Assembly (NCBI RefSeq): GCF_029223285.1 | Contig: NZ_JARHUJ010000004.1 | Coordinates: 558,001-622,000 of the forward strand | DNA: 64,000 nt | Source: Paraflavitalea sp. CAU 1676 | GTDB taxonomy: Bacteria; Bacteroidota; Bacteroidia; Chitinophagales; Chitinophagaceae | Direction: 5' to 3' | Shown: in pieces, positions 27,204 through 61,508 of the stretch | How positions within the stretch are numbered: the first letter of the stretch is position 1 | Layout: each line of letters begins with the position of its first letter | Program-made: the position numbers and the translations under genes | The notes under the pieces: model-generated | The model's input: only the letters and a program-made list of their open reading frames with translations | Told to the model about the DNA's origin: nothing | Databases searched by the model: none

Positions 27204-27341
27204 CCATCCCAAAAACGACGGAACGGTAGCGAGAAAAGGTTGAAAGAGAAAGAGTTGCGGGTTTGGGAAGCTGAAAAGGGGTAAGACCTGGAACAGCACA
27301 AAAAAAGAAGTTCTTTAGCGATAAAATCGCACAAAATATTG

Positions 27342-29124: not shown

Positions 29125-29757
29125 ATGGATTCTGTTCATGAAAATATAAGACGTTATTTATCAGCATTTTACCCAGGCCAAATATTAGTGCCAGCAGATT
29201 TTAGGGGGCGAGGTTCGCAAGATGCGATCAAGATGTCATTGTCAAGGCTAGTAAAAAGCGGGGAGCTAAAGAGAATAGCACATGGTATATACTACAAGCC
29301 TATGTTTCATACACAATTGGGCGAAATGTTGCCGTCACCTGAAGCAATTGCTGAGCAGCTTGCGGAAAAGGAGAAGGTGCGGATTCGTCCCACTGGATCT
29401 TTTGCTCTTAATAAGCTTGGCCTTAGCACACAAGTACCGACAAAGCTTACTTATTTAACGGACGGACATCCACGCAAAATTAGAGTGGGAAAGATGTCTA
29501 TAGAATTTAAGGCCTCTACTCCAAAAAAAATGGCTTTATCAGGAACTATCAGCGGCTCTTTGATACTTGCCCTTGAAGAGCTCGACCTAGACAATCTCGA
29601 ACCAGACCAGGAAAAAAGGATTAGGTATCTAATTCAAATTAGCAGAGATCAATTTTATAACGACCTTAAACTGGCACCTGCAAAAGTATATAACTATATT
29701 TCAAAAATTATAACCGAACTCGATGACACAATATTTAACATTATCTCAGAGGCTTAG
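29125..29757 (+). CDS. AbiEi-like antitoxin (DUF6088 family)
   Basis: A 210-residue protein with an N-terminal winged-helix domain (about residues 1-70: a helix, the SQDAIKMSLSRLVKSGELK recognition region, the wing RIAHGIYYKP). It ends with the C-terminal AbiEi-like region. AbiEi proteins are the antitoxins of type IV toxin-antitoxin systems and also autorepressors. The gene overlaps the AbiEii toxin gene by 35 bases, the usual arrangement. It sits directly behind the integrase of element 1 and may stabilise the element or block phage. Confidence 0.82.
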   Translation: MDSVHENIRRYLSAFYPGQILVPADFRGRGSQDAIKMSLSRLVKSGELKRIAHGIYYKPMFHTQLGEMLPSPEAIAEQLAEKEKVRIRPTGSFALNKLGLSTQVPTKLTYLTDGHPRKIRVGKMSIEFKASTPKKMALSGTISGSLILALEELDLDNLEPDQEKRIRYLIQISRDQFYNDLKLAPAKVYNYISKIITELDDTIFNIISEA

Positions 29758-30940
29758 GCGCAATCTACTTGCTCAAGCTGCTCTGATTAGTGGCATCAGA
29801 GAAAAAGCAATCGAAAAGGACTGGTGGGTAACACTATCTCTAAAAGCACTATTCACTACGCCGTACGCACAGTACTGCATATTTAAGGGAGGCACATCGC
29901 TTAGCAAGGGATGGAAGTTAATTGAGCGTTTTTCGGAAGATGTAGATATAGCACTTGAGCCGCAGGCATTCGGCATGACTTATAAGACTACACCAAGCCA
30001 CAGTTATGTAAAGAAACTGAAAAGAGAAGGGTGTAAATTCACAAGCACGGAATTAAAGCAGGCCCTTGAAAATGCGTTTATAGAACTTGGCGTGCCCAAA
30101 TCGGAAATTAGTATAGTTGCAGAGGCCATAGAAGCAGACAGGCCGGACAAAGATCCTCAAACTCTATTTATTCGTTATCAAACTGTGCTAGGGAGTGATC
30201 CATACCTTGCGGATGAGGTGAGGATCGAATTCGGTGTTCGGTCGCTTAAGGATCCATTTAGCGTCATTCAGATAAAATCAATCCTTGGTGATGTTTACCC
30301 CAACCCAGCTTACCAGGAGGAACCGTTTGAAGTTTCGGTAGTAGATCCCATGAAAACGCTGTTAGAGAAAATGTTTCTCTTGCATGAAAAATTCACTCAG
30401 GGATATCCCCAAGCAGCGCGTGGAGATCGGCAGTCGAGGCACCTGTATGATATAGTTTCATTGATTGGAACAGCAGCTGGAAAGGCAGTATTGGAGGATA
30501 CTCCCCTTTTTCAACAGTTATTACAACATCGTAAACATTATGTAAGGATAAATGGCATTGACTATGATCAGCTGATGAACAGAACTCTCCGATTTGTGCC
30601 GACGCCAGAATTGCTACAAGACTTTGAAAGCGATTATAAGGAGATGCAGCGTTCTATGATTTATGGAAATTCTCCAAACTTTAAAGATTTAGTTTTTTCC
30701 CTAAAATATTTTAATGCTCGCTTTTTGTTGGCAGGGTTTGGCCTCAACATTGAACAAATAGAGGAAAAATTCGTTGACGAATATCAAATCGAAAAGGCAA
30801 GTGAATCTGAAAATGTGATCATACGTAGGATCGTTTCAGTGGAAACAGTTAATGCTGATATTCATCGATTTAACGTTGCAATGTATAACCACGGCGATAA
30901 TTGGATGCTTCATGAATTGGGATATGTTCAACAATCCTAG
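29723..30940 (+). CDS. AbiEii/AbiGii family nucleotidyltransferase toxin
   Basis: A 405-residue toxin of the AbiEii family. The nucleotidyltransferase motif is KGGTSLSKGW at residues 55-64 followed by RFSEDVDIAL (69-78), whose D73 and D75 bind the metal. Members of this family modify tRNA acceptor ends and stop translation when the antitoxin is lost or a phage attacks. The C-terminal half is helical and specific to the DUF6088-paired branch. The ATG at 29723 overlaps the antitoxin gene, so expression is coupled. Confidence 0.9.
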   Translation: MTQYLTLSQRLRRNLLAQAALISGIREKAIEKDWWVTLSLKALFTTPYAQYCIFKGGTSLSKGWKLIERFSEDVDIALEPQAFGMTYKTTPSHSYVKKLKREGCKFTSTELKQALENAFIELGVPKSEISIVAEAIEADRPDKDPQTLFIRYQTVLGSDPYLADEVRIEFGVRSLKDPFSVIQIKSILGDVYPNPAYQEEPFEVSVVDPMKTLLEKMFLLHEKFTQGYPQAARGDRQSRHLYDIVSLIGTAAGKAVLEDTPLFQQLLQHRKHYVRINGIDYDQLMNRTLRFVPTPELLQDFESDYKEMQRSMIYGNSPNFKDLVFSLKYFNARFLLAGFGLNIEQIEEKFVDEYQIEKASESENVIIRRIVSVETVNADIHRFNVAMYNHGDNWMLHELGYVQQS

Positions 30941-43153: not shown

Positions 43154-43714
43154 ATGGCAGACAATAAGACAAATGTTGAAGCTCTTACAACAATTCTATC
43201 TGTATTAAAGGATTTGGATGTTGAGGCACAGAGAAGGACAATCCAGGCGGTAATTACATTTTTAGATATTCCCTCTTTACCAAAAGCGCTGACAACAATT
43301 GATAATCAGGCTACGGAAATTTCAAAGAATGAGGTTTCTTTTTCCGAAAATAGATCGATCTCTCCCAAAAACTTCATTCGGGATAAGGCTCCAAAAACAG
43401 ATATTGAAAGGATTGCATGCTTGGCGTATTATCTTACGCACTACCGGGACACTCCCCAATTCAAAACAATTGATTTGAGTAGTTTGAACACCGAAGCAGC
43501 TCAGCCTAAACTATCAAATGCGGCTTATGCTGTAGACAACGCTACTAAGGCAGGGCTACTAGCACAAGCGCTCAAAGGAGCAAAGCAATTGAGTGCTGCT
43601 GGAGAGTATTTTGTTCAAGCGCTTCCAGATCGAGATGCCGCAAAGGCAACTCTTACAAATATGCGACCAAAGCGTCGGTCAAAGAAATCTATTACAAAAA
43701 AAAATGGTGAGTAG
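43154..43714 (+). CDS. Winged-helix-like repeat protein preceding ParA
   Basis: A 186-residue protein. An N-terminal helical segment (TNVEALTTILSVLKDLDVEA, then RRTIQAVITFLDI) precedes a Ser/Asn-rich linker and one copy of the winged-helix-like domain (about residues 78-165: DIERIACLAYYLTHYRDTPQ, ending LSAAGEYFVQAL). The basic tail is KRRSKKSITKK. Its stop overlaps the GTG start of the ParA gene by one base, so it is probably a ParA partner, like ParB- or adaptor-type proteins in position only. The family is not recognised. Confidence 0.6.
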   Translation: MADNKTNVEALTTILSVLKDLDVEAQRRTIQAVITFLDIPSLPKALTTIDNQATEISKNEVSFSENRSISPKNFIRDKAPKTDIERIACLAYYLTHYRDTPQFKTIDLSSLNTEAAQPKLSNAAYAVDNATKAGLLAQALKGAKQLSAAGEYFVQALPDRDAAKATLTNMRPKRRSKKSITKKNGE

Positions 43715-44715
43715 TGCCTAATTCTAATCTAAAGAGACATACATCAAAAAGAATTACATTATACAATCATAAGGGGGGGGTTGGTAAAACAACTTTGCTA
43801 GTAAATATCGCAGCTGCTTTGGCTGATTTAGGTAAGCGAGTTCTATTGGTGGATGCTGACCCTCAATGTAATTTAACTTCTTACCTTGTTGAAGCGGAAG
43901 TTGTGGACGGATGGTTGGACAACTCCGATGCTGAAAATGGAGCTACTATTTGGTCGGCTTTAAAACCCTTTATTGAAGGAACTGGCGACATTCAAAAGAT
44001 ACCAGTTCAAGAAAGGCGAGAAGGCGTTTTCTTGATACCCGGGGATATAAGGCTTTCTGAATTTGAGCAAGAATTGAATCAAATTTGGGTTGAATGTTTG
44101 CAGAGGAAAATCCGGGGATTTAAAGGGGCGTCGGCCATAAGCCACATTGTTAACGAAATAGCCAAGCAAAAGAAGGTTGATTATGTCTTTTATGATATAG
44201 GCCCTAATATTGGTCCCTTGAATAGGGTTGTCCTTTTAGATTGCGATTATTTTATAATCCCTGCTGCTTGTGATTTGTTTTCTGTTCGAGCATTAAAAAC
44301 TCTTGGGAAGACTTTGTTTTCTTGGATACAGGAATGGGATATAGTTTATCAATTAGCTCCAGACAATACTCTTCTTCTACCAGGGAAGCCAAACTATATT
44401 GGCTATATTTTACAAAGATTTAGGATGTATGGGGACGCTATTGCAAGTCAATTTGCTAGCTATGCGAGTAAACTAGAAAAGAGCACTTATAGCGATGTAA
44501 CCGAGGTGCTTCGAAGGATAGATAAAAATCTTGCAAAGGGTTCGTTGAGTCAAAACCGACTAGGTCAAGTAAAAGACTTTGCAAGTCTAGTCCCATATTC
44601 ACAAACTCAAGGGGTGTCATTTTTTGATGTTGAAGGCGGCAGTGTTCAACAAAAATATGAGGCCAAGAGAGAGTTTACCTCAATTGCAAATAAAATAATA
44701 ACTCTTACTGCTTAG
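43714..44715 (+). CDS. ParA/Soj family ATPase
   Basis: A 333-residue P-loop ATPase of the ParA/MinD class. The deviant Walker A is KGGVGKTT (residues 20-27) and Walker A' is VDADPQCNLT (46-55). Walker B is YDIGPNIGPLNR near residue 160, and DLFSVRALKTLG follows. The start is GTG at 43714. ParA proteins move cargo over DNA or act as ATP-driven switches. No centromere-like repeats or parB gene are visible, and the gene is wedged between a winged-helix protein and a RelA/SpoT synthetase. A regulatory or defence role is therefore more likely than partition. Confidence 0.88.
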   Translation: MPNSNLKRHTSKRITLYNHKGGVGKTTLLVNIAAALADLGKRVLLVDADPQCNLTSYLVEAEVVDGWLDNSDAENGATIWSALKPFIEGTGDIQKIPVQERREGVFLIPGDIRLSEFEQELNQIWVECLQRKIRGFKGASAISHIVNEIAKQKKVDYVFYDIGPNIGPLNRVVLLDCDYFIIPAACDLFSVRALKTLGKTLFSWIQEWDIVYQLAPDNTLLLPGKPNYIGYILQRFRMYGDAIASQFASYASKLEKSTYSDVTEVLRRIDKNLAKGSLSQNRLGQVKDFASLVPYSQTQGVSFFDVEGGSVQQKYEAKREFTSIANKIITLTA

Positions 44716-44727
44716 ATCGTTCTGCCG

Positions 44728-45498
44728 ATGGAAAGGAAAATTGGGACAAAAAGGCTCCAACTTATTGATGACCTTGTAAATCATTTTGTAATCCATAAAG
44801 GACAATTTTCGATTTTGCTTGAGAGCATCAACAGCAATATTGAACACTCGATTGCACTCAAGAAATTGATTCATTCGACGAAAGCAAGAATTAAGGATCC
44901 TGATCATCTTAGGGATAAATTGATACGTAAGGCGAAAGAAGCCGAGGCGAGTAAAACCCCATTTCATTATACTAAAGAAAACTTGTTCGCCACAATTAAT
45001 GATCTGGCTGGATTTAGGATTATTCACCTTCATACAAAGCAATTTCAAAAGATTGACGAAGAACTTAAGAAAATATTTACGGAACAGAGATGGAAAATAG
45101 TTGAAGGTCCCAATGCCAGAACCTGGGATGATGAATCGAGAAGCTATTTCACGAGTATTGGTGTTCAAATTTCTACAAATTCGAATATGTACACCAGCGT
45201 GCATTACATCATTTCCCCAAACACAAGTTCGGCTATAACTTTTGAGATTCAAGTCCGAACGTTAATGGAGGAAGTTTGGGGGGAAGTTGATCATACAATA
45301 AATTACCCACACAAATCAGAGAGCTTATCATGCCGGGAACAGATCAAAACGCTTGCGCGAGTTACGTCAAGTTGTAGCCGGCTTGTGGATTCAATATTTG
45401 CGACTGATGAATATGAGAGAAATAGAAATGTGAATATAGTCGAGCGCATACCAAGTAAAAAAACGGCAAAATCTGCTCCAAAACAAAAAAGGAAATAA
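44728..45498 (+). CDS. RelA/SpoT-type nucleotide synthetase domain protein
   Basis: A 256-residue small alarmone-synthetase-like protein without hydrolase or regulatory domains. Conserved residues are in place: D92 in INDLAGFRIIH, the stacking Tyr Y155 in MYTSVHY (the usual GYxSxH has Met for Gly), catalytic E173 in FEIQVRTLMEEVW, and H189 in EVDHTINY. It starts 12 bases after the ParA stop. Such proteins make (p)ppGpp or ppApp, or act as toxSAS toxins that pyrophosphorylate tRNA. A very basic tail (KKTAKSAPKQKRK) could bind RNA. The activity cannot be told from sequence alone. Confidence 0.85.
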   Translation: MERKIGTKRLQLIDDLVNHFVIHKGQFSILLESINSNIEHSIALKKLIHSTKARIKDPDHLRDKLIRKAKEAEASKTPFHYTKENLFATINDLAGFRIIHLHTKQFQKIDEELKKIFTEQRWKIVEGPNARTWDDESRSYFTSIGVQISTNSNMYTSVHYIISPNTSSAITFEIQVRTLMEEVWGEVDHTINYPHKSESLSCREQIKTLARVTSSCSRLVDSIFATDEYERNRNVNIVERIPSKKTAKSAPKQKRK

Positions 45499-45777: not shown

Positions 45778-45827
45778 TAAAAAGAGAAGAAGCTGATTTA
45801 CAAAGATATACGACCGAAACGGTTATC

Positions 45828-45840
45828 CCGTCCGGTCCGC
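45828..45840. repeat. Attachment core copy 2 (junction of elements 1 and 2)
   Basis: CCGTCCGGTCCGC, identical to the tRNA-Asp 3' end; one more base upstream (C) also matches copy 1. There is no tRNA body here, as expected for an internal junction of a tandem array. Confidence 0.88.
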
Positions 45841-46044: not shown

Positions 46045-47430
46045 ATGTCTCAATTAATTTATCCAACCTGCGACAAAAAGCGCATCAGAAAAATCGATGG
46101 AACTAGCAAAGTGTATCTTCAGTATAACTTCAATTCTGATATCAGACCATTGCTAGATACAAATATTTCCATTCCTCCGCAATATTGGGATAGGGTCACC
46201 AGGCGGGTTAATCATAAACTACCAAACGATTGTGGGAGCTATAAGGAGTTAAATAAGGAAATCAAACGACAAGAAGATCTAGCCCGCGACTTAGTTAGGC
46301 TTGGGATTCGGATGAAGGTTGTGGACATGGTAGCGTTTGTAAAGCAATTCTACAACCCTGAGCTTGACGTAACGGACCTTACTTTAAAGAAGGAATTATT
46401 TGAAAGACTATCAAAAAGTCCAGAAGAAAGAAACAATGATGACCTATTTTTCCAACTAGAAGAATATATAAAAGCCAAAAAGGGGCGTGTGTCCGACAAG
46501 ACGATAAATATTTTTGAGCAGGTCGGTCAACATCTCAGAGCGTTTGAAAAACATTCAGGTTCTAAAGTTTGCTTTGAAGCTCTGGATTTTAATTTTTACG
46601 ATGCTTATACCAGGTTTCTAACCTTCGAATATGTGCAAGAGCGGAGAAAAACACCTGTTATTGGTTTAAAGCAAAATTCAATAGCAAAGACCATTAAGCA
46701 GCTCCGAATATTTGTGAAGGATAGAATCAAGCGAAAAATTATCGCTCCCATCGATTTGTCGGACTTCAAATCCCAAGAAGAAAATACAGACGCTATCTAT
46801 CTAAATTTTGACGAAATCCGAAAGTTATACAACCTTGATTTGAATAATTCTCCTGTCCTGGCTCAATATCGGAGGATTTTCATTGTCGCTTGCTTAACGG
46901 GGTTACGCTTCTCAGATTTCTCCACGATCACCCCCGAAAATATTGTCGGCGAAAAATTCATTTTAAAGCGCCAGGAAAAATCGGACAGCCCTGTGATGGT
47001 TCCGCTACGAGAGGAAGCTAAACAATTGCTGCTGGAGTATTTTGAGAACAAGGGCGTAGTCCATATCACAAACCCTGATCTAAATGCCAATGTAAAAGTG
47101 ATAGGAAGGATGGCAGGGATAACAGATTCGGTTACGTTCAGCTACAAAAAGGGCGCGCAAACCATAAAGGACACCAGAGCAAAGTGCGATTGGATTTCGA
47201 CACACACTGCCCGGCGATCATTCTGTACCAATGAATTTCTGGCAGGAACGCCGATTAAGCTAATAATGAAGATTAGCGGTCATAAAAAGGAGAAAGATTT
47301 CTATAGATATATACGTATTACGGAAAAGGAAGCTGCCTTGTTGATCGAGCGTATATGGCTGGCAAGAGATGGAATGCAACCGCTAACCATGGTGACAAGT
47401 GAGCCTGGGGAAGCTAAAGATACCGTTTGA
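46045..47430 (+). CDS. Tyrosine site-specific integrase of element 2
   Basis: A 461-residue integrase, homologous along its length to the element 1 enzyme; the catalytic domains share long identical runs such as ACLTGLRFSDFST and HTARRSFCTNEFLAGTP. The catalytic residues are complete: Arg in TGLRFSD, His-x-x-Arg in HTARRSF, His in ISGHKKEKDF, Tyr in FYRYIRI. The N-terminal arm-binding part differs more, in keeping with the different arm repeats upstream. It should recombine the same tRNA-Asp site. Confidence 0.95.
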   Translation: MSQLIYPTCDKKRIRKIDGTSKVYLQYNFNSDIRPLLDTNISIPPQYWDRVTRRVNHKLPNDCGSYKELNKEIKRQEDLARDLVRLGIRMKVVDMVAFVKQFYNPELDVTDLTLKKELFERLSKSPEERNNDDLFFQLEEYIKAKKGRVSDKTINIFEQVGQHLRAFEKHSGSKVCFEALDFNFYDAYTRFLTFEYVQERRKTPVIGLKQNSIAKTIKQLRIFVKDRIKRKIIAPIDLSDFKSQEENTDAIYLNFDEIRKLYNLDLNNSPVLAQYRRIFIVACLTGLRFSDFSTITPENIVGEKFILKRQEKSDSPVMVPLREEAKQLLLEYFENKGVVHITNPDLNANVKVIGRMAGITDSVTFSYKKGAQTIKDTRAKCDWISTHTARRSFCTNEFLAGTPIKLIMKISGHKKEKDFYRYIRITEKEAALLIERIWLARDGMQPLTMVTSEPGEAKDTV

Positions 47431-48136: not shown

Positions 48137-48796
48137 TCACCGATTTTCCTTTGCTATTTTATCGACTATGTCCACAAGTTTTTCAACAGTATTTTTGTCT
48201 AAGTCAGATGACTGATAGCCATGAACAACTTGATTACGTATTTCAAATAGATTTTCTAGTGTCCTTAACTCTGGAAGTGAAATATATCCAAAAGAGAATA
48301 ATGTCTTTATAAGTGTTAAAGGGTTTCTATTCTTTAGATTCTTCTTATCGTTCAGAAGTAATTGTCTTGATAGGCTTTCTAAATAACTCCAGGTAAGTAC
48401 AAAAGCTGCATTATAATGTTTTAACTTACTAAGCTCTTTTATTTCCTTTAAAAGTTTGTCAAGATTATTTATTTGCAAGCCTTCTAGTAGTGGTCTGCCT
48501 TTGGATTCTGTTTCTTGCTTTGATGAGGTTATAATTAATTCAAATCTCCAACCACTTTTTTCATTGATAACATCAGCAACATTCTTAAGTCGCTCAATAG
48601 CTGAAATGTCTGCTCTTGACTTGACTTCAATAACTACCGTTTCTGATTTATTCGAAGCGATAATATCAGGTTGATAGTTTTTGATAAATTCTGGTATGTC
48701 TTTCCCTTTAGGTTCAATAATTACATTGTAACCTTTCTTCTCGTAGTCACGAGCCACTTGCTTAATTCTGCTTATTTCAGTTGTTTTTGTTTCCAT
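48137..48796 (-). CDS. Restriction endonuclease-like / HEPN fusion protein
   Basis: 219 residues from the ATG at 48796, one base after the RusA stop (a start at 48811 would add five residues and overlap). The N-terminal domain has the PD-(D/E)XK nuclease signature: D44 in YQPDIIAS and E57-V-K59 in VVIEVKSRADIS. The C-terminal helices (about 125-215) end in R187-N-Q-V-V-H192, a HEPN R-x4-H motif. This two-domain layout, reminiscent of AHJR-type REase-HEPN proteins, occurs in defence islands. It could cut DNA and RNA, or use HEPN as a sensor. It is the last gene of the minus-strand operon. Confidence 0.72.
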   Translation of the reverse strand: METKTTEISRIKQVARDYEKKGYNVIIEPKGKDIPEFIKNYQPDIIASNKSETVVIEVKSRADISAIERLKNVADVINEKSGWRFELIITSSKQETESKGRPLLEGLQINNLDKLLKEIKELSKLKHYNAAFVLTWSYLESLSRQLLLNDKKNLKNRNPLTLIKTLFSFGYISLPELRTLENLFEIRNQVVHGYQSSDLDKNTVEKLVDIVDKIAKENR

Positions 48797-48797
48797 T

Positions 48798-49199
48798 TTA
48801 AATCTCTTCAAAGTTACCAGATAATACTACTTTCACATGAACGAAGTCTGCATTCATCATAAATCCGTCGGCCATTGCTCTTGAAAGCCCTTTAACTTTA
48901 AATGAACCGGTGATATTTCTTTTTTTGGTAATGGAGTCTGTTAATTGGTCATCGTCATTATATACCAAACCAATAAGTGCATCTTGAATAGGCTTGACAA
49001 TGTTGTCTACATCAGGGGCTGCATTTTCATAAAAGTTTGTCACGATAATTGTCAGTTGTTCTCCTGATGGCGGGTCACCTGCTGGCCAATATGCTTGGGC
49101 AGCTTGCCTCACCCTTTGCTTCCATGCTTGCAACCTTTGTCTATTTTTAGTTTGTTGCGAAACAGGAGGGCCTTGTACTATAAAATCAAATGGTATCAT
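48798..49199 (-). CDS. RusA family Holliday junction resolvase
   Basis: A 133-residue RusA-like endonuclease. RusA enzymes are dimers that cut four-way DNA junctions and are typical of prophages. The catalytic acidic motif is DVDNIVKPIQDALIGLVYND (D63, D65, K69, D73), followed by D82-D84. All expected residues are present. It is unusual to find it within an operon of defence-like genes; it may process DNA intermediates for the neighbouring nuclease. The start is 57 bases after the winged-helix gene stop. Confidence 0.9.
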   Translation of the reverse strand: MIPFDFIVQGPPVSQQTKNRQRLQAWKQRVRQAAQAYWPAGDPPSGEQLTIIVTNFYENAAPDVDNIVKPIQDALIGLVYNDDDQLTDSITKKRNITGSFKVKGLSRAMADGFMMNADFVHVKVVLSGNFEEI

Positions 49200-49256
49200 G
49201 AAATTATGAGGTTCGTTGTCGGATACACCTAACGATCGGGATTTACGATTTAGGGT

Positions 49257-50609
49257 TTATTCCAGGAGTTTGTTGAGTACGGGTTTAATTCCATCAGCAA
49301 TTGGTTCAGACATGATTGAACTCACTACGCCACCCGCCGTCATGTCTGCGATTTTCGCAGCGAGAAGACGTCTCCAATCTTTCTTCTTCAAACCATAAAG
49401 GTCTTTCAATTCGCTAAACTCCTGCATCATGTCATCATAAGTAAATTCCTGGCTTAGCGTTACTTTCTTCATCATTTCCATCAGAAGATCAAGCTTTTCA
49501 TTTAATGACTCTCGTTCACTTTTAGAGAAATAGTCATGACCGTTCCCATTGACTGCTTCAGTCTTTTTTTGCAGGTAATATTGAATTCCTTCAAAATGAA
49601 GATAGGTATAGAAGATACTCTCACTGCCTCCGACGTCTATTGATAGCAGGATAGTAGAGTTCTCCTTATAGCTTGATTCATTAAAAAGGTTGATATAATA
49701 TCTTGCCAACTCTAAGCAAAGGCTTATATCTAATTTAGGTAAACCGGTTGCAAGAGCAATTTCGTCAATGGGAATATTGCGCACTTCGCCATTGTTCAAA
49801 ATCATTTTCCGTATGGCATTGATCACGATATTGATTTGATCAATAATGCGGTTATTGCCTTCGAGGGCAACGACTCCAAGAATCCTAATGGTCGCACCAT
49901 CGCTGGACATTAATCGATCATCTACAGCAGCAGTTTTAAAGGTGGTAGGAATTTGGGAGTTAAGTTTTGCCCACAATTGGCGATAGGTGAATCTTTCTCC
50001 CTTTACAGTGAATTTATAGAGTTCGGAAAGCCATAGGCGTTCAGACTCCTTCAAAACAGGAATATCTAAATCGCCGGTTGTTGAATTTGAATGGGGCGCA
50101 CTATTAGTTTGCTGTGTTGGACTGAGGTTGGGGTTACGACGCTTATAAAAGGCCTTACCTGTATCATTGATAATATACCATTGATATTGGTCATCGATAT
50201 AGGGCTTTAACCGGTATAATGATTGCAAGAGATTGCCATCGTTTATAGCCTTGCCATGTTGTGGCGCCATCGTCTTGAGTATTTCGGGAAAGTCTTCAAG
50301 TCGTACAAAATCGTTACGGTTGTATAAAAATCCAATGAGGGCTAAGTCATAGTCATCAAAAACTAGGTTATGAATAAATTCTAGTTCTCTTTGTTCAAGG
50401 TCTTCGATATAGTTTTTCCCGGAATCTGAAATTTGCAGCCGGTTGCCTTCGATGGATACATAGCCTTCGGACTTTAATCGTTCTATTACTTCTGTGCCAG
50501 AGACATCTTTATACCCCAACATTTGGGATTTTATGTCGCCAGTTGAGATATCATATTTCCTTGTTGCCATGTATTTTAGAAAGTGGATAATAAAAGCATT
50601 AAGGGTCAT
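49257..50609 (-). CDS. Winged-helix-containing protein of unknown function
   Basis: A 450-residue protein I do not recognise. Residues 5-70 look like a winged helix (FIIHFLKYMATRKYDISTGD, then VIERLKSEGYVSIEGNRLQI). Residues 75-160 may hold a second one (ALIGFLYNRNDFVRLEDFPE). A Ser/Thr/Asn-rich linker (about 162-185) separates a C-terminal helical part with several Met-rich helices and an amphipathic tail. It starts one base after the GGCT-like stop codon, so it is certainly part of the same operon. It may be a regulator or a nucleic-acid adaptor; this is inference. Confidence 0.6.
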   Translation of the reverse strand: MTLNAFIIHFLKYMATRKYDISTGDIKSQMLGYKDVSGTEVIERLKSEGYVSIEGNRLQISDSGKNYIEDLEQRELEFIHNLVFDDYDLALIGFLYNRNDFVRLEDFPEILKTMAPQHGKAINDGNLLQSLYRLKPYIDDQYQWYIINDTGKAFYKRRNPNLSPTQQTNSAPHSNSTTGDLDIPVLKESERLWLSELYKFTVKGERFTYRQLWAKLNSQIPTTFKTAAVDDRLMSSDGATIRILGVVALEGNNRIIDQINIVINAIRKMILNNGEVRNIPIDEIALATGLPKLDISLCLELARYYINLFNESSYKENSTILLSIDVGGSESIFYTYLHFEGIQYYLQKKTEAVNGNGHDYFSKSERESLNEKLDLLMEMMKKVTLSQEFTYDDMMQEFSELKDLYGLKKKDWRRLLAAKIADMTAGGVVSSIMSEPIADGIKPVLNKLLE

Positions 50610-50610
50610 A

Positions 50611-51216
50611 TTATTGATTTCGGTTTGTTCGACAAAAATTATAGGCCTCTTCGAGATTGGATGCGCCTGTTAAATGCAGTATTTGCTGTTCGTAATCGTT
50701 GGAGAGAGCCGTTTTAATGCCGTTTCTACGTGCTGTCATTAAATAGTTGATGCCATCCATCCTGTTAGCTCCGGCAGGACTACTTGCGCTTTGGATCGCG
50801 AACTCTGCGAGGGTATGAGGTGTCAGGTTGGGTATGTTTGAGCCAATGCGGGTGAAGAGAACAGTTTGTACGTCTTCGAATTCAGATAAGCTATCAATAA
50901 GCACTGTATTTATTGTAATAGCTTCATCAGCCGGCCTCCGGTAATTGCGCCTGGTTTGCCGGGTTTCTCTTTGATATAAAATATCAGCAGCCTGCTCAAA
51001 AGTAGTATCGGGCTGTAGTACCAGTATCTGTGCTCTGCTACCTTTGCCATGGGCAACGGGTATTAAGGTCGGTGCGTTATCCCTGGTGCTGCTTGTCCTT
51101 GCAAACTCAATGGGGAATGGAGTTGTGGTAGTGATCCGGCGAATAGACAAATTCAGGATTTTTTGACCGGGATCTTCGATCAAAGAGCCGTACGCTAAAA
51201 TTCCAATGGTATTCAT
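50611..51216 (-). CDS. Gamma-glutamylcyclotransferase-fold protein
   Basis: A 201-residue protein whose N-terminus GILAYGSLIEDPG (residues 5-17) carries the YGSLxxxxG substrate-binding signature of the GGCT fold. A beta-rich core follows (IEFARTSSTRDNAPTLIPV, then SRAQILVLQP) and a helix with an acidic residue (ILYQRETRQ), the likely catalytic Glu. GGCT enzymes cyclise gamma-glutamyl amines or lyse epsilon-amides. It sits 14 bases after the giant PRTase-nucleosidase gene, so a joint metabolic or modification role is likely. The C-terminal 50 residues are extra. Confidence 0.72.
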   Translation of the reverse strand: MNTIGILAYGSLIEDPGQKILNLSIRRITTTTPFPIEFARTSSTRDNAPTLIPVAHGKGSRAQILVLQPDTTFEQAADILYQRETRQTRRNYRRPADEAITINTVLIDSLSEFEDVQTVLFTRIGSNIPNLTPHTLAEFAIQSASSPAGANRMDGINYLMTARRNGIKTALSNDYEQQILHLTGASNLEEAYNFCRTNRNQ

Positions 51217-51230
51217 AAGAAATTGCTATC

Positions 51231-54200
51231 TCAATCAAGGTAATTTGATTTAAAAATTTCCACAAGAACTTTCATGGCATTTTTTGAGGCAGCCAATCTC
51301 CATTCATTTTTCTTTTCCATATCCGCCTTATCGGAAATCCCCCTGATGATCATTATTCCCCGGGCTCTTCTGGAATAACTAAGGCCGTCTTCATAAAACT
51401 GTTGGGCTGCGCCACCTGCCTCAGTTTCAACCGCGAGGGTCTTGTCGTTGACTGCTAAGAGCCATATCCTTTCTTCTGCCTCTTTAAATTTGATCACAGC
51501 TTCACCAGTTCCAATGGGGCCACAGAAACTTGTAAATGTATTTGAGGGGCTATTTTCTGATGCAGCAAATGATGGTTCTTCACTCTTGTTCTCATGGTGA
51601 TACCTCCTTATAAATTCTTTCGTCCAGGCATTCATTTTGAAAGAGTCCATTCTGTGATTTGTTCCGTTTTCGGTTTCAGCTCTCTTGTCGTAGTAATATG
51701 TGCTGTCACCGATTGCAACGTCGCCAATCTGCAAATCTTTGTGTATTGAACCTGCGATGCCTAATAGAACAATGACAGTCGGGTTAAACTCCTCAGATAA
51801 AGCATTGTACGCTGAGATAACGGAACGGTTTCCTTGCTCAACTGCCTGTACCGTTGCGACTTCAAGACTCTTGCCATTTTTATCTTTTATCTCGCCAAAA
51901 TAATAAGTCCGTGCTGATTGAGTCCCTCGTTTTTCAGCAAAGGTGTTGTTCTCTTTAAAATAATCTGTAACCGCTGCCAGTTCCTCGGCAACAATCGTGA
52001 TGATTCCAATGTCCATAAGATTTTTTATTGGTTCGACTTTCGATTTTGTAAAATGATTTGATCTAAAAGTGATATTATAAGGTGTGGCGATGGTCATGTT
52101 CTTTTTACCTGCAGGGTTATGCTCAACGAAGCCCGATAGTTCACTTTTAATTTCATCTTCTATTGACGCTTTATTCGATTCTGAGCTTGTGAAATATATT
52201 AATTCATGTCCCACCAAGGGTTTGAATTTACTTTTTAACAGCTCCTTGGCGACATCCCAGAACAAAGGGGCATAACATTGATTCGATGAAACTTTCTTAA
52301 TAATCCGAAAAGCATCCAGGTGAAAGAAAAAAGTAAATTTCAACGTAGCATTATTATCCAGAGCTTCGGCCATTCTGGCACTTAATCGAAGAAGCCACCT
52401 TCTCGAATTCTTTCCCTGTGAGCATATCCAAATGCCTGTCTTAATCGCTGAAAATTGTATAGGTATTTCAAATAAATAGGTTTGATCCTGTTTTTTAGCC
52501 TCTATCCCTAATTGATGAATTACCTTTTTAAATTTGGCCGCTATCTGCTTTTTAGGGATATTGAAGTTCTTGAAATCGACTACAAGGGCATGATCATAAT
52601 AGGAGATCCTTTCAATTTTTCCGAAGCTACTTGCTATCGCATCCACTTCCGATAAAACTTGCCTGCCAGTCTGAAAGTTTTCTTTTATTTTTTCAGTGGA
52701 GAAAATATATAGGTCTTCTTTTTTTAATTCACTTGTTCTATACCTTTCAATCGCCCTGTCATAAACGTGTTTCAGGTTTATATGTAAATTAGGCAGGAAC
52801 TCTTTTGTTTTCTTTAAAATGTCCTGTGATTCAGTATTGGCCTCAGTTTCCCTGAACTGGTTTAGGCTTTTGGAAAATGATAGTTCTATCAAATTAATAT
52901 AGAACCTGGTGGAGAATAGAAGATTTGCCAATCTGTTAATTAACTCAATTACTTGCGGATTTGCAGATCCAAGGCTTGTTTCTTTGCCGGTAGTGGGCCA
53001 AAAACTTTTCCAAACTTCGCTATACAATTCATTAGGAAATGACTTTGCTGCTTTTTCAATTGCTTTCCAGGGAATACCCGCCATAAAACTCTCGAACTTC
53101 CAGGTCCCGCTGTTGATAGCGGTGAAAGCTCTTTGTTTTCTTAGTTTAGAGAACTGGTCACCATTATTATCCGGATATGGGTTGAAATATTTTTGTTCCT
53201 GGAATAGATAAAATCCCTGGAATATATTTATTTCAGCAGCTAATGCACCCATTAAATCAATTACATAAGGGCATGTTGATAAAAGAACTAATTCATCAAG
53301 GCTTAACCTGGATTTGCGAGGATTCATTAGATTGCCTACTACCAGGCCCAGCTGATTGGCATGATTAAGCCCGCTGGTATCTACGCCGGATTTGGGGCTT
53401 TCAGTTAAGGTATAGAAATCTTCAAACTTATCTCTATGCAAATAACCCGCTTCTTCCAATAGATGTGTCAATGAACGATCAAAGTTTACCTTATAAAGAC
53501 TTTTATCAAAGGAGCCTACGACCGCACCATGCAAATAATATCTTATTCCAACTGTACTGAATTCACTTAGGGGATTGGTGGAAATAGTCAAAAAGTCCTT
53601 TTCAATGCCTACCCGAATTAATAGTACCAATAATTTTTCAACTATTGTGTGCGGCAAATTATTATTCCCATACTCCTTAGTGAATTTTTCAAGCATTGAA
53701 ACACATAAGCGAATCTCATTTTCAGAAAACTCCACATCCTCGCCATGACGAAAAGCCCGGTATATAAGGCCCTTATTTACATATGTTATTGGAACGACAG
53801 CTCCTTTGTCAATATAAAGGTCCAGAAAGTAGGAAACGAGCTTGCCGGGATTAATTTGGGTCGAGATTCCCGATAAGAAGGATTTTAAGTCGCCAATAGA
53901 ATAGCCCTGGTTAAGTCTGTTGATCGTGCTTTTATATTCCTCGTCCTCAAAAGCCTTAATGCCGAGTTCCTTGACAAGCCTTCTTGCTTTCAATTCTTTG
54001 TCACGGTACAAATCAAGAAATGGTTTTGATAATTTATGTAGCGCCACTCCTTCCTCAAACGTATTTTCTTCTGATTGTACTATCAGCGGCTCAGTTTGAT
54101 GAGCAAATTGTATATTCAAATCTACAAAACTAATTTTTCTATTGTCGGATGCGATTCTGATAGCATCAGTGATAGGGGGTGGAAAAAGAAAATTTATGTT

Positions 54201-55178
54201 TTTGAAATCTTGTTCCAGTATGATATTGCTGTCAATTTTGCTGACTATGTCACGATACCAATGTTGACTTAACCTGCTACCCAAATAATACTGAACTAAA
54301 CGGAGTTTACTTTTTAATGAATCTTCTTTTGAGTCATTCTCAAACCAATTCTTGATGTTATTGTCCTCAAATGAACTGCAAATTCTAAGAAACATTTTCT
54401 CCAACTCCTCCTCCGCCAGGGGAGGTAGAATTACAATGGGCAATGCCTGACACCAATAGACGTCCTGTATATTCAAAGCGTACAATCTCAATTTGAATAA
54501 CGAGTTGTTGGCTATTGAGAGCCCCAAATCGTCCAGGAGAGACAATAGAGCGGGTTCGCTTGGTACGATAGTCAGGTTTAAAATATTGTGTTTTTCCTGA
54601 TGAGACGAGGTAGATTCATATACAATCCAATCAGCAGAATTGCTTATTTCCTGGAAGTCTTTTTCCTTTATTCTTATATTCTTAAATAATGGATAATCTA
54701 TGGTGTAAGGCCTTGGTACCACAGAAATGGCATTTACAATGTTTGAACATATCAGTGATGTTTGTTCAGAATTCAGTGTAAAATAGGGAGGCTTGGGATC
54801 TACAAGTTCTTTTACCCACCAATGTCCATCGACGCTCAGAACATAAACATCAACTTTATCAATTCCAAATGTATTTAGCTTGCCTAAGGCCTCATTTATC
54901 GTCGTTCCACTGATTAGCGCATCGTCAACAATCGCAACCTTTTTTGATTTCAGCCAGTTAAGATCCATATCCAGAATCCGGCTTGAGGTGACGACACAAT
55001 GAAAGCTTGATAATTCCAATTCGTCGAGGCAATCCGCCAAGCAAGCTGCTTTGCGAGCAAGAAAAATTAAAACATCATACTTCTGTGATAAAGCAGTCAG
55101 TCTTTTTGAGAATTCGATTATATGCGTCCTGAAACTTGAATCAAACTGTTCAAGAAAATAGGTGCGTCTTAAACTCAT
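51231..55178 (-). CDS. Giant phosphoribosyltransferase-nucleosidase fusion protein
   Basis: A 1,315-residue protein with recognisable enzymes at both ends. The N-terminus is a type I phosphoribosyltransferase: VAIVDDALISGTT (81-93) is the PRPP-binding motif, preceded by VLIFLARKAACLAD (36-49). Residues about 1055-1315 are a purine nucleosidase/phosphorylase domain of the MTA/SAH nucleosidase type. It starts MDIGIITIVAEELAA, has IVLLGIAGS and IGDVAIGD, and ends with AVETEAGG and RGISDKAD (base-binding Glu and catalytic Asp). The 900 residues between are helical and unknown. Making and breaking N-glycosidic bonds in one chain suggests nucleotide depletion or a nucleotide signal. First gene of a minus-strand operon. 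Confidence 0.8.
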   Translation of the reverse strand: MSLRRTYFLEQFDSSFRTHIIEFSKRLTALSQKYDVLIFLARKAACLADCLDELELSSFHCVVTSSRILDMDLNWLKSKKVAIVDDALISGTTINEALGKLNTFGIDKVDVYVLSVDGHWWVKELVDPKPPYFTLNSEQTSLICSNIVNAISVVPRPYTIDYPLFKNIRIKEKDFQEISNSADWIVYESTSSHQEKHNILNLTIVPSEPALLSLLDDLGLSIANNSLFKLRLYALNIQDVYWCQALPIVILPPLAEEELEKMFLRICSSFEDNNIKNWFENDSKEDSLKSKLRLVQYYLGSRLSQHWYRDIVSKIDSNIILEQDFKNINFLFPPPITDAIRIASDNRKISFVDLNIQFAHQTEPLIVQSEENTFEEGVALHKLSKPFLDLYRDKELKARRLVKELGIKAFEDEEYKSTINRLNQGYSIGDLKSFLSGISTQINPGKLVSYFLDLYIDKGAVVPITYVNKGLIYRAFRHGEDVEFSENEIRLCVSMLEKFTKEYGNNNLPHTIVEKLLVLLIRVGIEKDFLTISTNPLSEFSTVGIRYYLHGAVVGSFDKSLYKVNFDRSLTHLLEEAGYLHRDKFEDFYTLTESPKSGVDTSGLNHANQLGLVVGNLMNPRKSRLSLDELVLLSTCPYVIDLMGALAAEINIFQGFYLFQEQKYFNPYPDNNGDQFSKLRKQRAFTAINSGTWKFESFMAGIPWKAIEKAAKSFPNELYSEVWKSFWPTTGKETSLGSANPQVIELINRLANLLFSTRFYINLIELSFSKSLNQFRETEANTESQDILKKTKEFLPNLHINLKHVYDRAIERYRTSELKKEDLYIFSTEKIKENFQTGRQVLSEVDAIASSFGKIERISYYDHALVVDFKNFNIPKKQIAAKFKKVIHQLGIEAKKQDQTYLFEIPIQFSAIKTGIWICSQGKNSRRWLLRLSARMAEALDNNATLKFTFFFHLDAFRIIKKVSSNQCYAPLFWDVAKELLKSKFKPLVGHELIYFTSSESNKASIEDEIKSELSGFVEHNPAGKKNMTIATPYNITFRSNHFTKSKVEPIKNLMDIGIITIVAEELAAVTDYFKENNTFAEKRGTQSARTYYFGEIKDKNGKSLEVATVQAVEQGNRSVISAYNALSEEFNPTVIVLLGIAGSIHKDLQIGDVAIGDSTYYYDKRAETENGTNHRMDSFKMNAWTKEFIRRYHHENKSEEPSFAASENSPSNTFTSFCGPIGTGEAVIKFKEAEERIWLLAVNDKTLAVETEAGGAAQQFYEDGLSYSRRARGIMIIRGISDKADMEKKNEWRLAASKNAMKVLVEIFKSNYLD

Positions 55179-55547: not shown

Positions 55548-56213
55548 TTACGGGTAGACTTCCTGGTATAAATTATATAGATCGGCAGTTTGGGGTGTTA
55601 GAAAGGACAGGTTGGTGGGCCGGAACAGGATTATCTGAACGGAAGGGTCAGCGTTGTTTACCGCCAGTCCGAAAGGGAAGCCAAGGGGATGGTTGTTGCC
55701 GGAGGGCGTATTTAGGTAACTGAGGTGTCGTCTGAATCCCAGCAGTTCCCGCAGCTGGGATTTATGATAAGCCCCGAATTTGCACTCGTAGGCTGCGTTG
55801 AGGTGTTGGGGAGCTGGAAGACCGCCAAACTGGTTTAAGATTTCAGAAACATGGCTTTCCTCGATCACCACGACATCGGCTTCAAAGATATCTCCCGCCG
55901 GACCTTTTGTCCCCATTGCAGCAAGGCCGTAGCATTCTACGTCAGTTGCGAAATAAAAGGTTGTTGTCGGGAACTGCACTTTAAATGCCTTAGCTGGGTC
56001 AAACCTTCCTGGTTTCTGGTTGAGGAACTGGACCGGAGGGGTGACAGCCAGCGGCTGGCCATACACCTTTGCGTATTCATTGATTGCTTTAGCGCAGATC
56101 ACCGCTTCAAATGCCATTTCTGCCATCTTCGTGAATTGAGCGGTGGGTTGTCCCTTTACATTCTGCAATAAGCGATCAAACTCTTTTTTGAGGTCATTGA
56201 CGTTGCTAATCAT
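55548..56213 (-). CDS. Putative PD-(D/E)XK nuclease-like protein
   Basis: A 221-residue protein without a recognised name. It has an N-terminal helical segment, then a possible nuclease core: D113 in FEADVVVIEES and E143-C-K145 in AAYECKFGAY, spaced and flanked by beta strands as in PD-(D/E)XK folds. A helix (KSQLRELLGFRRHLSYL) follows, then an aromatic C-terminus. It directly follows the gene at 56214-56663 with no gap, so the two are a pair. The fold assignment is an inference from motif and pattern. Confidence 0.5.
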   Translation of the reverse strand: MISNVNDLKKEFDRLLQNVKGQPTAQFTKMAEMAFEAVICAKAINEYAKVYGQPLAVTPPVQFLNQKPGRFDPAKAFKVQFPTTTFYFATDVECYGLAAMGTKGPAGDIFEADVVVIEESHVSEILNQFGGLPAPQHLNAAYECKFGAYHKSQLRELLGFRRHLSYLNTPSGNNHPLGFPFGLAVNNADPSVQIILFRPTNLSFLTPQTADLYNLYQEVYP

Positions 56214-56663
56214 CTATAAATTGTTATTCAGGTTGTTGAAAAAATCCTGGTCGTCGGTTGAGATAAATTCCGCCGTCATACTTAATAGTTGCTCCAATTG
56301 CTGCAGTGACGGGTTATTCAGTACCGTTGCGAGGTTGACCGGTAAGTTGGCATTTTCAGTGTATAGGTTTAACTGTGGGCGGGGACCTATAGAGCGGTCG
56401 CTGAAACCCTGGACTTCCTGTTCAAATTGAGCCGGAAGATCTGCGGCTGATCTCAGATAGTTCCGGGTGGCATCGATCAACTGGCGAAGCGCCGTAAGAG
56501 CATAATCGGGGTCTTGTGCACGGCGGTATAACTGATCGAGGGCAGTGCTGGAATCTTCGTAAAAGCCACCGTTTAAACGGTCGCTGAGTAAATAGGTGCC
56601 GACTTCATCAAAGTTATTTTCCCTGATCGCATTAAACAGAGCGTTGAAGATCTCTTGTGCCAT
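56214..56663 (-). CDS. Hypothetical partner of the nuclease-like protein
   Basis: A helical protein of about 149 residues (start ATG at 56663; the frame extends to 56675). It contains EIFNALFNAIRENNFDEVG, a stretch with SSTALDQLYRRAQDPDYALT, and an Asn/Gln-rich acidic end (FISTDDQDFFNNLNNNL). I recognise no family. Its stop codon abuts the next start, so it is probably co-translated with the putative nuclease, perhaps as an inhibitor or adaptor; that is inference. Confidence 0.5.
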   Translation of the reverse strand: MAQEIFNALFNAIRENNFDEVGTYLLSDRLNGGFYEDSSTALDQLYRRAQDPDYALTALRQLIDATRNYLRSAADLPAQFEQEVQGFSDRSIGPRPQLNLYTENANLPVNLATVLNNPSLQQLEQLLSMTAEFISTDDQDFFNNLNNNL

Positions 56664-56967
56664 TGATGGACTCATGATAAATGGTTTGAATGTACTGGCT
56701 GAAAATGTCCGTTCCAGAAGATTGTCTGGTTAAGTCATCACATAAATTTATAAAAGTCCAGGGGATGAGGGATAGAAAATGGGAAATCAATTTGCGTATA
56801 TGGCACGCATTGTATTGCGAATTTAATGGTAGGGGGATTTTTGAATAGTATCGGACCTTATTTTTCTTAAACAAGCCGGGATAAATACCATTTCATTCGT
56901 TCGTATGGAGGATACACCTGTATGTAATAGTTTTTCATGCAGGCAATTGGCTTCAACGTACGAAAAC
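56664..56967. other. Gap before the broken sigma factor gene
   Basis: About 300 bases between divergent genes. I see no gene, strong hairpin or clear promoter. Confidence 0.4.
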
Positions 56968-58874: not shown

Positions 58875-60641
58875 CTAATTGATAATTATAACAAACAAAT
58901 TCCGTAATTGGTAGGGAAGATTTCCGGCGTCTTGCGCCTGCTCGCCAAAACCGAAATCTGTAGCTGCCTTTGTGAAATAACTCATCGGATCTCCAGTCGG
59001 GTAAGCCTGTTCCATGAAGCGCATAAAGGAAAACTGGGCAGTAAGATAGGTCCAGGGGTTAGCTTTTTTGATAGCTTCTTTTAATTCCTTCTTTTTACGA
59101 TCATGATACTCAGTAACCCTGTCACGTAGGAAAAAGCGTTCGGTTTTTAACTGCGGGTAATATTTAATAAAAAAATGTAGATGAATCAGCGTAAGCGGAT
59201 GAGTTTTTATGAAAGAAGATCGCTCATCTGAAATGATGGCATCAAATTGTTCATCAAGAAAAGTATTGACACCTGAAATGTCAAGGGATGGTTCCGTGTA
59301 AACGATTATTGGAAAAAGCCTGAATTTGCTACCAAGCGATTTGAGATGCCGGATTTGATTTCTTAGCTGATAAATCCCCTTATTTTTTTCTCCTGCGAAT
59401 TTCTTTTCAGTGGCGAACTGGTCATATAAGAATTGCTGGAGACCTTGCGTATCGGCCCTGTCTACTACCGTTCCATGTATTCTTGTAGATTTCACTTCAA
59501 TGACAAATACATCTTTGTTATTCTGCATAATCAGGATGTCGGGATATTGCGGGTCATCTTTGTCGGTCTTGATGGTATCGTACCGGTGCGTAAATATTTG
59601 CCTGACTAACTGCAGCGTGATATACTCCTCAAAAAAATATTTTCCAATTATGCCCAGGTACTCGTTGTAATTGTTTATACCATGATTTTTCTTCAGCGAG
59701 GTGACTTTATAAAAATGATAAATGAGACTTATATCAGTTAAATTCGAGAAGAAATCAAAATCGAGCACAGCTACGCCTTCCGAAAAACGGTAAAAGGGTT
59801 GGTTGATCAGTGCAAAGGACTCGCCTGAAAAAGAGCTACCGGATGCAGCAGCAGGATCATAGATAAAGGGTTCGAGCACGCGTTCCAGTGTCGCATCTAC
59901 TATGCAATACCGGGGCTGCCTGTCCTGTTCATAACCAGTATAAGAAGAGATTATAGTTTGCAGGAACACGAAATAGAAATTATAGGGAGACACTACACTG
60001 AACGCGGCGGCAAATTCCTTTAAAGGGGCTTCGCCGTATCGCTCTCCCACAAAACGAAAGAATAAAAAAGCCTTCAATGCATTGACACCATACATGTCGG
60101 CTTTCTTCCTTGCGAACTCCTGCTGAAATAGTTCCAGCTTCCAAAGGAAATCTATCGACAACAAGTTTTTAGTATCGGCCCGATTGTAATACGCCTCGTT
60201 AATGGCTAGAAGTGTATCGAACAAATCCTTCTGCAAGAGCGCCTCACTTTCTTCATTGATGCTGTCCTGATCATCTATCGGCCTGTAACGGGCGATGAGT
60301 TTCGCCATGAGGTTCACAATGACCTGCGAACTAAAGACCGCAGCATACTTGCCTTCCGGAGTTGAGCGTATTTTAATCAACCTCTCATAGATCGATCTGT
60401 GCAGTTTGTTAAATACGAGACTGAATGTATCGTTATCAATTTGATTGGGATCGCCGCCGCACTCAAAGATGATCGCATTTATTTTTGAGAGCATAATGAT
60501 CAACACGTCGGTAGGATATTTTAAAAGCTGCCCAATCGGATCTACGGCCGCGGCCTTGCCGTAAAACTGACGATAAGCCAGTACTCCAAATATGGAGAAG
60601 GTGGGATTTTTTGATCCAGAAGATGAGTTAGTATTTTTCAT
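58875..60641 (-). CDS. Large protein with C-terminal PD-(D/E)XK nuclease domain
   Basis: About 588 residues from the ATG at 60641 (the frame reaches 60698, but the preceding residues look non-coding). The N-terminal 330 residues are helical and aromatic-rich with no known domain. A nuclease core lies at about residues 365-385: PDILIMQ with the Asp, then VFVIEVKSTR with the E-x-K pair. A further helical part follows (LRNQIRHLKSLGSKFRLFPI). This layout, a large helical sensor plus a restriction-type nuclease, is seen in many single-gene defence proteins. It is transcribed alone at the right end of element 2. Confidence 0.6.
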   Translation of the reverse strand: MKNTNSSSGSKNPTFSIFGVLAYRQFYGKAAAVDPIGQLLKYPTDVLIIMLSKINAIIFECGGDPNQIDNDTFSLVFNKLHRSIYERLIKIRSTPEGKYAAVFSSQVIVNLMAKLIARYRPIDDQDSINEESEALLQKDLFDTLLAINEAYYNRADTKNLLSIDFLWKLELFQQEFARKKADMYGVNALKAFLFFRFVGERYGEAPLKEFAAAFSVVSPYNFYFVFLQTIISSYTGYEQDRQPRYCIVDATLERVLEPFIYDPAAASGSSFSGESFALINQPFYRFSEGVAVLDFDFFSNLTDISLIYHFYKVTSLKKNHGINNYNEYLGIIGKYFFEEYITLQLVRQIFTHRYDTIKTDKDDPQYPDILIMQNNKDVFVIEVKSTRIHGTVVDRADTQGLQQFLYDQFATEKKFAGEKNKGIYQLRNQIRHLKSLGSKFRLFPIIVYTEPSLDISGVNTFLDEQFDAIISDERSSFIKTHPLTLIHLHFFIKYYPQLKTERFFLRDRVTEYHDRKKKELKEAIKKANPWTYLTAQFSFMRFMEQAYPTGDPMSYFTKAATDFGFGEQAQDAGNLPYQLRNLFVIIIN

Positions 60642-60854
60642 ATAATATTTCTGTAATGTGAAGATCCGACACCCAAAAGATATAGCGTAGTTTGTCATCC
60701 TGGTAAAAGAAGCCGAAAAAAGTGGAATTCAATTCTAATGACAGAATATAGGCCCGCCCCCTTTTTTAGCAACCCTTAGTCCAAGTGTGGGTTGACGAAT
60801 ATCAAAACATGAGGAAGTTTTAAAGATAGTTGCATTTCGCTTAGTACGCCGGGG

Positions 60855-61464: not shown

Positions 61465-61477
61465 CCGTCCGGTCCGC
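61465..61477. repeat. Attachment core copy 3 (right end of element 2)
   Basis: CCGTCCGGTCCGC again, followed at once by a terminator hairpin. This is the likely original chromosomal sequence behind tRNA-Asp before integration. Confidence 0.88.
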
Positions 61478-61508
61478 AAAAAGCCTCACAGTAATGTGAG
61501 GCTTTTTT
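61478..61508 (+). terminator. Probable original terminator of tRNA-Asp
   Basis: AAAAAGCCTCACA (61478-61490) pairs with TGTGAGGCTTTTT (61495-61507), GTAA loop. It lies directly after the attachment core but is now 34 kb from the tRNA body. Confidence 0.85.

Follow-up and report, generated by a model that had tools for sequence, protein, structure and literature searches.

Within the 64,000-nucleotide stretch of the Paraflavitalea sp. CAU 1676 genome that we analyzed (contig NZ_JARHUJ010000004.1, positions 558,001 to 622,000; hereafter the window), five minus-strand open reading frames (ORFs) lie close together at 48137–55178. The locus is best read as two defence-like modules placed side by side on an integrative element. 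Module 1 (49257–55178) is composed of a giant protein ending in a nucleosidase, a ChaC-like protein and a winged-helix (WH) protein; module 2 (48137–49199) consists of a RusA-family resolvase and a restriction endonuclease (REase) fused to HEPN. Judged from sequence, module 1 may be an abortive-infection nucleosidase system with the WH protein as its adaptor, a reading in which our confidence is about even, and module 2 is very probably separate from it. The five ORFs are:

51231–55178, minus strand: giant, 1,315 amino acids (aa), with a phosphoribosyltransferase (PRTase)-like N-terminus, a middle of ~900 aa without family and a C-terminal nucleosidase
50611–51216, minus strand: ChaC-like gamma-glutamyl-cyclotransferase family protein (the "GGCT" gene), 201 aa
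49257–50609, minus strand: WH protein, 450 aa
48798–49199, minus strand: RusA-family resolvase of module 2, 133 aa
48137–48796, minus strand: AHJR-like REase fused to HEPN, module 2, with the ATG at 48796 as preferred start

These coordinates match those of the preliminary description, which had presented five minus-strand genes with gaps of 14, 1, 57 and 1 bases as a single conflict system. The spacing is confirmed: 14 bases separate the giant from the ChaC-like gene, 1 base the ChaC-like from the WH gene and 57 bases the WH gene from RusA, while a last gap of 1 base requires that the REase-HEPN ORF begin with the ATG at 48796 (219 aa); counted from the TTG at 48811, this ORF spans 48137–48811 (224 aa). 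In our judgement, chance alone would not be expected to leave ORFs as long as 1,315, 450 and 201 codons intact. The host genome comprises 8.84 Mb in 23 contigs. As the preliminary description supposed, the set is not a named system: none of the Pfam, PADLOC, NCBIfam or PHROGs models has a name for it, and no description of it was found in the literature as searched by titles and abstract openings, many subscription papers lying outside this coverage.

We divide the locus into two modules, and not one operon, because the RusA and REase-HEPN pair recurs without the other three genes. The REase-HEPN protein matches 6 of 72,556 plasmid records (E up to 1e-3); RusA is directly upstream in all six, and the giant, ChaC-like and WH genes occur at none of these loci (8-kb flanks, tblastn E up to 1e-3). 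Where the records are annotated (three of the six), RusA and REase-HEPN share one to four bases. Among 99 related genomes, the fusion is found only in its own. The single five-gene system of the preliminary description thus gives way to a separate conserved pair, and the finding that was to speak against that system, namely that the last two genes are unrelated to the rest, is partly approached by this stand-alone occurrence. A joint system, with module 1 depleting nucleotides and module 2 cutting phage or host nucleic acid, is unlikely. The shared strand and short gaps would fit it, as would the lack of a listed minus-strand terminator-like site between WH and RusA, in pattern scans whose promoter and terminator results were at chance level (9 terminator-like sites observed versus 9.4). 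Against it stand the six plasmid loci and, as a weak hint, the G+C content of 0.349 for the pair versus 0.394 for the other three genes.

Both proteins of module 2 keep their active-site residues. RusA (Pfam E 2e-9) carries D63, D65, D73, D82 and D83, invariant in the four aligned sequences, in an Asp-rich stretch that we take to be its active site. In the fusion (AHJR-like REase, Pfam E 3.4e-29), D44 and E57 of the REase and R187 and H192 of HEPN, numbered from the ATG, are likewise invariant in 4/4 sequences, and the REase lysine position is Arg in one of them; the motifs concerned are PD-(D/E)xK and RxxxxH. Solved-structure matches of the fusion are weak, of NucS/EndoMS type plus one hypothetical protein (E 0.33–0.62). 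An archaeal Holliday-junction-resolvase-like REase fused to HEPN has been noted (PMC3710099), and the fusion type is the same here; the steady pairing with RusA, seen in the window and in 6/6 plasmid homologues, sets the present case apart, RusA being unmentioned in the main text of that paper. We read module 2 as an independent nuclease pair.

In module 1, the C-terminus of the giant holds a predicted nucleosidase:

51255–52013, minus strand: nucleosidase (PNP_UDP_1, PF01048) domain of the giant, aa 1056–1308, Pfam E 2.3e-14

Its identity as a nucleosidase is a firm prediction. The PNP_UDP_1 match scores 53.8 bits against a cut-off of 25.1, and E1066, E1253 and D1283 align with E12, E174 and D197 of Escherichia coli MTN, which we take to be the catalytic residues of that enzyme; the purine-nucleosidase-type domain proposed earlier is borne out by these two observations. 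Scored against 11 proteins, the domain ranks a Streptomyces plasmid protein first (121 bits), followed by the G305 fusion (93), a Nostoc SAVED-PNP protein (79) and the G449 protein (64.3), with E. coli MTN lowest (40 bits). It thus appears closer to effector-type PNP proteins than to E. coli MTN, a placing that is only suggestive because ten of the eleven proteins had been picked as matches to the giant and because an MTN-like protein (L003) reaches 62.8 bits, near the fourth-ranked score. The Streptomyces protein matches the PADLOC PN-superfamily effector (7.7e-21), the Nostoc gene is followed by an annotated CBASS cyclase, the N-terminal portion of the G305 fusion is HNH-like by eye and the G449 protein is N-terminally extended. 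For the giant itself, the nearest PADLOC models are PDC-M60C (1.3e-15) and the PN-superfamily effector (9.5e-15), while its solved-structure matches in the Protein Data Bank (PDB) are mostly methylthioadenosine/S-adenosylhomocysteine (MTA/SAH) nucleosidases (best E 4.3e-4). The domain also matches 38 plasmid records; among the 20 listed, 15 are TIR-domain proteins, 1 SAVED, 1 a phosphorylase and 3 hypothetical, and the 15 TIR-domain records amount to about one protein since they are near-identical Klebsiella/Raoultella copies. Nucleosidase domains with other N-terminal regions are present in genomes of the phylum (proteins L006 and L007).

Across CBASS (Cap17), Detocs, pAgo, DRT8 and NLR-like systems, PF01048 is listed among the defence domains, with degradation of (d)ATP as its activity, and SLOG PF18178 is listed as a TIR/PNP-associating domain (PMC10952713). 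The giant resembles Cap17-like effectors in its C-terminal PF01048, its conserved catalytic positions and its location on a mobile element; it differs from them in having no Pfam match to PF18178 at E up to 1, a PRTase-like motif standing at its N-terminus instead. Among the proteins scanned at the locus, Pfam found no cyclase, Argonaute or reverse transcriptase. Detocs systems have two-component-like sensor genes beside the effector; neither the five genes nor the two ORFs upstream match a kinase or receiver. For PNP domains of conflict systems, a signal role has also been proposed (PMC7159879), in which the freed base or ribose phosphate would be sensed by other parts without depletion of the pool. 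We regard this as quite improbable here, given that Pfam detects no pore or signal receptor among eight proteins scanned and that the PNP effectors of PMC10952713 are listed as (d)ATP-degrading.

At the other end of the giant, the recognizable feature is a loop binding phosphoribosyl pyrophosphate (PRPP):

54900–54938, minus strand: PRPP-binding loop of the giant, aa 81–93, VAIVDDALISGTT, aligned by hhalign to three PRTase groups

This predicted loop has good support; beyond it a PRTase fold is unproven, because the matches are confined to the loop. Residues 72–115 match Pribosyltran at E 8.6e-4 and 19.1 bits, under the Pfam cut-off of 26.3, and a two-sequence profile of aa 1–200 aligns with three PRTase groups from related genomes with probabilities of 25.1%, 88.9% and 83.6% (hhalign); as controls, the same profile gives 0.06% with a ChaC profile, and two of the PRTase groups give 97.1% with each other over 131 columns. 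The loop has the two acidic residues expected of a type I phosphoribosyltransferase, and no PADLOC PRTase model matches the giant. Of the PRTase and nucleosidase that the preliminary description placed in one chain, the nucleosidase stands in full and the PRTase as a PRPP loop. A PRTase is named in a figure legend of the DefensePredictor paper (PMC13092281).

The three-gene set of module 1 is very rare. One near-full-length relative of the giant was found, of 1,319 aa and 30% identity, on a 7.9-kb contig of a Candidatus Kapaibacterium metagenome-assembled genome, with an insertion sequence transposase upstream. Its nucleosidase end looks truncated, and only 124 bases of contig follow the gene, too few for a three-gene linkage to be read there; the search for co-occurring giant, GGCT and WH genes proposed in the preliminary description has yielded a second giant and no linkage elsewhere. 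Further upstream on this contig, beyond the transposase, a 372-aa protein (5597–6715) has a weak HamA match (E 4.7e-4). In overlapping genome sets that include its own genome, the giant has matches in 4/99 related genomes, three of the four in the nucleosidase only, and in at least 7 of 395 phylum genomes, the N-terminal part being confined to its own and the Kapaibacterium genome; the N-terminal alignment matches at least 1 of 294 family genomes, namely its own. These counts are lower bounds, since the 395- and 294-genome searches scored no more than two or three candidates in each genome. Among 118 genomes around the Kapaibacterium one, the only match is that genome itself. A wider, non-exhaustive scan of genome contigs with two peptide patterns recovered the Kapaibacterium locus only, pattern-limited scans of viral contigs gave no relative of the giant or of its N-terminal alignment, and plasmids gave three weak Ensifer matches to the N-terminal half (best E 3).

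The second protein of module 1 belongs to a ChaC-like family by profile comparison, which bears out the cyclotransferase assignment suggested for it earlier. Against a seven-sequence ChaC profile, the family built from the window protein and three plasmid relatives (n=4) reaches 93.8% probability (E 1.7e-7) across 169 columns; the YGSL motif and the glutamate of an RE pair (E84) are in register and invariant in 4/4 sequences, and we assume these to be the catalytic features of the ChaC/GGCT fold. E. coli ChaC alone gives 12.2%. Among the controls, GGACT (PF06094), considered as the family of this gene and rejected, gives 4.3% and an unrelated profile 0.1%, while ChaC and GGACT give 7.6% with each other. 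Neither protein nor family has a significant match in Pfam or NCBIfam; the protein has no PDB match and the family none better than E 0.98, and the single-sequence structure model (mean predicted local distance difference test score, pLDDT, 53.3) is too weak for a fold reading. The family therefore shares with ChaC a domain-long profile match, YGSL and the RE glutamate, and differs from it in the missing Pfam match and in its surroundings.

All three plasmid relatives were inspected, and two of them are fused to or adjoin a known defence system. On the Rhizobium sp. BT04 plasmid (8402–10624), the ChaC-like domain forms the C-terminus of a PARIS AriAB protein (PADLOC 2.1e-117) that sits amid metabolic genes. 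In Mesorhizobium WSM4875, the ChaC-like gene adjoins HamA-like (E 0.0064) and HamB (7.5e-45) genes of Hachiman, in a region that also holds toxin-antitoxin and restriction genes. In the window, none of the five genes matches AriAB or HamAB at E up to 0.1 (PADLOC). A link of the ChaC-like gene to defence is likely on this evidence, its relatives lying beside or inside other systems, or with none. The family occurs in 1/198 phylum genomes, its own, and no relative was found in phages or, by pattern-limited scan, in viral contigs.

The third protein recurs elsewhere in pieces:

49680–50054, minus strand: WH central domain, aa 186–310, recurring N-terminal to nucleoside deoxyribosyltransferase (NDT)/TIR-like domains in two genomes
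49260–49595, minus strand: WH C-terminal domain, aa 339–450, recurring in three small proteins

It has no significant Pfam match, and its N-terminus is read as a winged helix from weak PADLOC matches, the best being MkoB (E 0.00081), followed by WH_III-A (E 0.0016 over 34 residues). Matches occur in 7/296 genomes, its own included, and none of the other six is full length. The two relatives of the central domain (22–23% identity) both end in a domain that PADLOC assigns to TIR effectors (7.9e-12 and 1.9e-13) and Pfam, below cut-off, to nucleoside deoxyribosyltransferase; one adjoins an AbiEii gene with a GajA-like gene nearby, and the other sits amid genes that look like housekeeping genes by eye. 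The central domain thus precedes a likely base-cleaving domain elsewhere, and in the window the base-cleaving enzyme would be the giant, in trans. Of the three small proteins sharing the C-terminal domain, L033 has an OLD-type ATPase on one side and a type III restriction-modification system on the other, L034 has no PADLOC match for itself or the one neighbour scanned and L032 is on a 3.5-kb contig. A sixth match (G156, three internal stops, E 3.8e-4) was dropped, its neighbours not being defence-like by eye. Plasmids hold no match to the WH protein, nor to its two domains with L036 and L033 as queries.

Type III-A1 retrons couple a PRTase with a WH protein (PMC12548924), and the PRTase-like motif and WH partner of module 1, with the weak WH_III-A match, recall them. 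We rejected descent from such a retron, with loss of reverse transcriptase and non-coding RNA, as the main explanation and consider it highly unlikely: no reverse transcriptase was found among the window ORFs scanned, Rfam at gathering thresholds gives only tRNA-Asp in the window, and the WH_III-A match covers 34 residues and ranks under MkoB. The PRTase here, unmatched by PADLOC, is moreover the start of a giant nucleosidase.

We prefer the reading of module 1 as an abortive-infection system, because its nucleosidase keeps the MTN positions and has effector-type PNP relatives, because the ChaC-like relatives occur with PARIS and Hachiman and the central WH domain precedes NDT/TIR-like domains, and because the element adjoins one with AbiE (see below); the gaps of 14 and 1 bases argue for a unit. 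The conflict-system character suspected earlier is in keeping with defence-type relatives for three of the parts. As we infer their joint working, the WH protein, via its winged-helix and central domains, would detect or relay a signal of infection and then release the giant, whose nucleosidase would strip adenine nucleotides or nucleosides of their base and thereby halt both growth and phage replication. At the other end of the chain, the PRTase-like N-terminus would most likely bind or consume PRPP, and might either gate the nucleosidase or keep the freed base from being salvaged. As an accessory, the ChaC-like protein may cleave a gamma-glutamyl compound or hold the system in check.

Several observations weigh against this reading, in addition to the choice of proteins in the nucleosidase comparison. 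The giant, ChaC-like and WH genes are together at no second locus, their link being gene spacing in one genome. The PRTase alignments span only 36–42 columns, all at the PRPP loop, and the structure model of the giant (aa 1–1056 plus one relative) has a mean pLDDT of 33.3, too low for use, the middle of the protein being without family. Matches to the WH protein cover only part of it and are weak (E 7e-18 to 4e-4). The Salinibacter M1 relative of the ChaC-like gene has no defence neighbour, and ChaC was found in 0/99 phylum genomes, so glutathione is doubtful as a substrate here. The best NCBIfam name for the nucleosidase is MTA/SAH nucleosidase (56.8 bits, cut-off 169), and a metabolic substrate is thus possible. 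Module 1 could on this account serve metabolism or salvage, its PRTase re-using the base freed by a nucleosidase of MTA/SAH type, as the conserved catalytic residues and the PDB matches would also allow. We hold this to be improbable in view of the domain scores, higher with effector-type PNP proteins than with E. coli MTN, the restriction of the N-terminal part to two genomes in the genome searches and the mobile-element location.

With the defence reading preferred, the giant might further be the first known member of a rare class of immune enzymes. Its PRTase and nucleosidase, in a single chain, would act together on the nucleotide pool, swapping bases or blocking salvage, under the control of a WH adaptor and of a ChaC-like enzyme specific to defence and acquired by several unrelated defence systems; this stronger proposal is doubtful. 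Should the defence reading hold, a PRTase-nucleosidase fusion would be added to the immune effectors that deplete nucleotides, whose number is growing, and would raise the question of how abortive infection handles PRPP and base salvage. The occurrence of one ChaC-like family with PARIS, Hachiman and the giant makes gamma-glutamyl chemistry in phage defence testable, and the RusA and REase-HEPN pair, split off, offers a further candidate open to testing by itself.

The modules are carried by one of two integrative elements in tandem at a tRNA-Asp gene, element A at 27.4–45.8 kb and element B at 45.8–61.5 kb:

27341–27415, plus strand: tRNA-Asp, integration target of the tandem elements
45826–45840, plus strand: left attachment (att) site of element B, copy of the tRNA-Asp 3' end (15/15 bases), followed by a hairpin and T run
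61465–61478, plus strand: right att site of element B, copy of the tRNA-Asp 3' end (14/14 bases), followed by a hairpin and T run
46045–47430, plus strand: tyrosine recombinase of element B, just inside its left end

The tandem arrangement follows from the repeats of the tRNA 3' end, of which three copies lie within 27341–61478, and from a recombinase inside each left end, that of element A being at 27610–28998. The left att copy belongs to a longer 84% match across 101 columns, and the hairpins at the att sites were judged by eye. The att 14-mers (ten tried) were absent from 200/200 mononucleotide shuffles of 28000–64000. Element B measures ~15.6 kb and its cargo includes all five genes; the mobile island of the preliminary description is hence corroborated by att repeats and integrase. 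The G+C contents of elements A and B are 0.414 and 0.406, and those of the left and right flanks 0.483 and 0.484. Element A bears an AbiEi/AbiEii pair at 29125–30940 (PADLOC E 3.6e-58 and 3.4e-90) and, at 43714–45498, a RelA/SpoT-domain protein preceded by an ORF that looks ParA-like by eye. Upstream of the giant, at 55548–56675 on the minus strand, are two adjoining ORFs without family matches, the 221-aa one resembling a restriction-fold nuclease by eye only, and the 607-aa protein encoded at 58875–60698 gives a weak match to NERD/Hjc-like nucleases.

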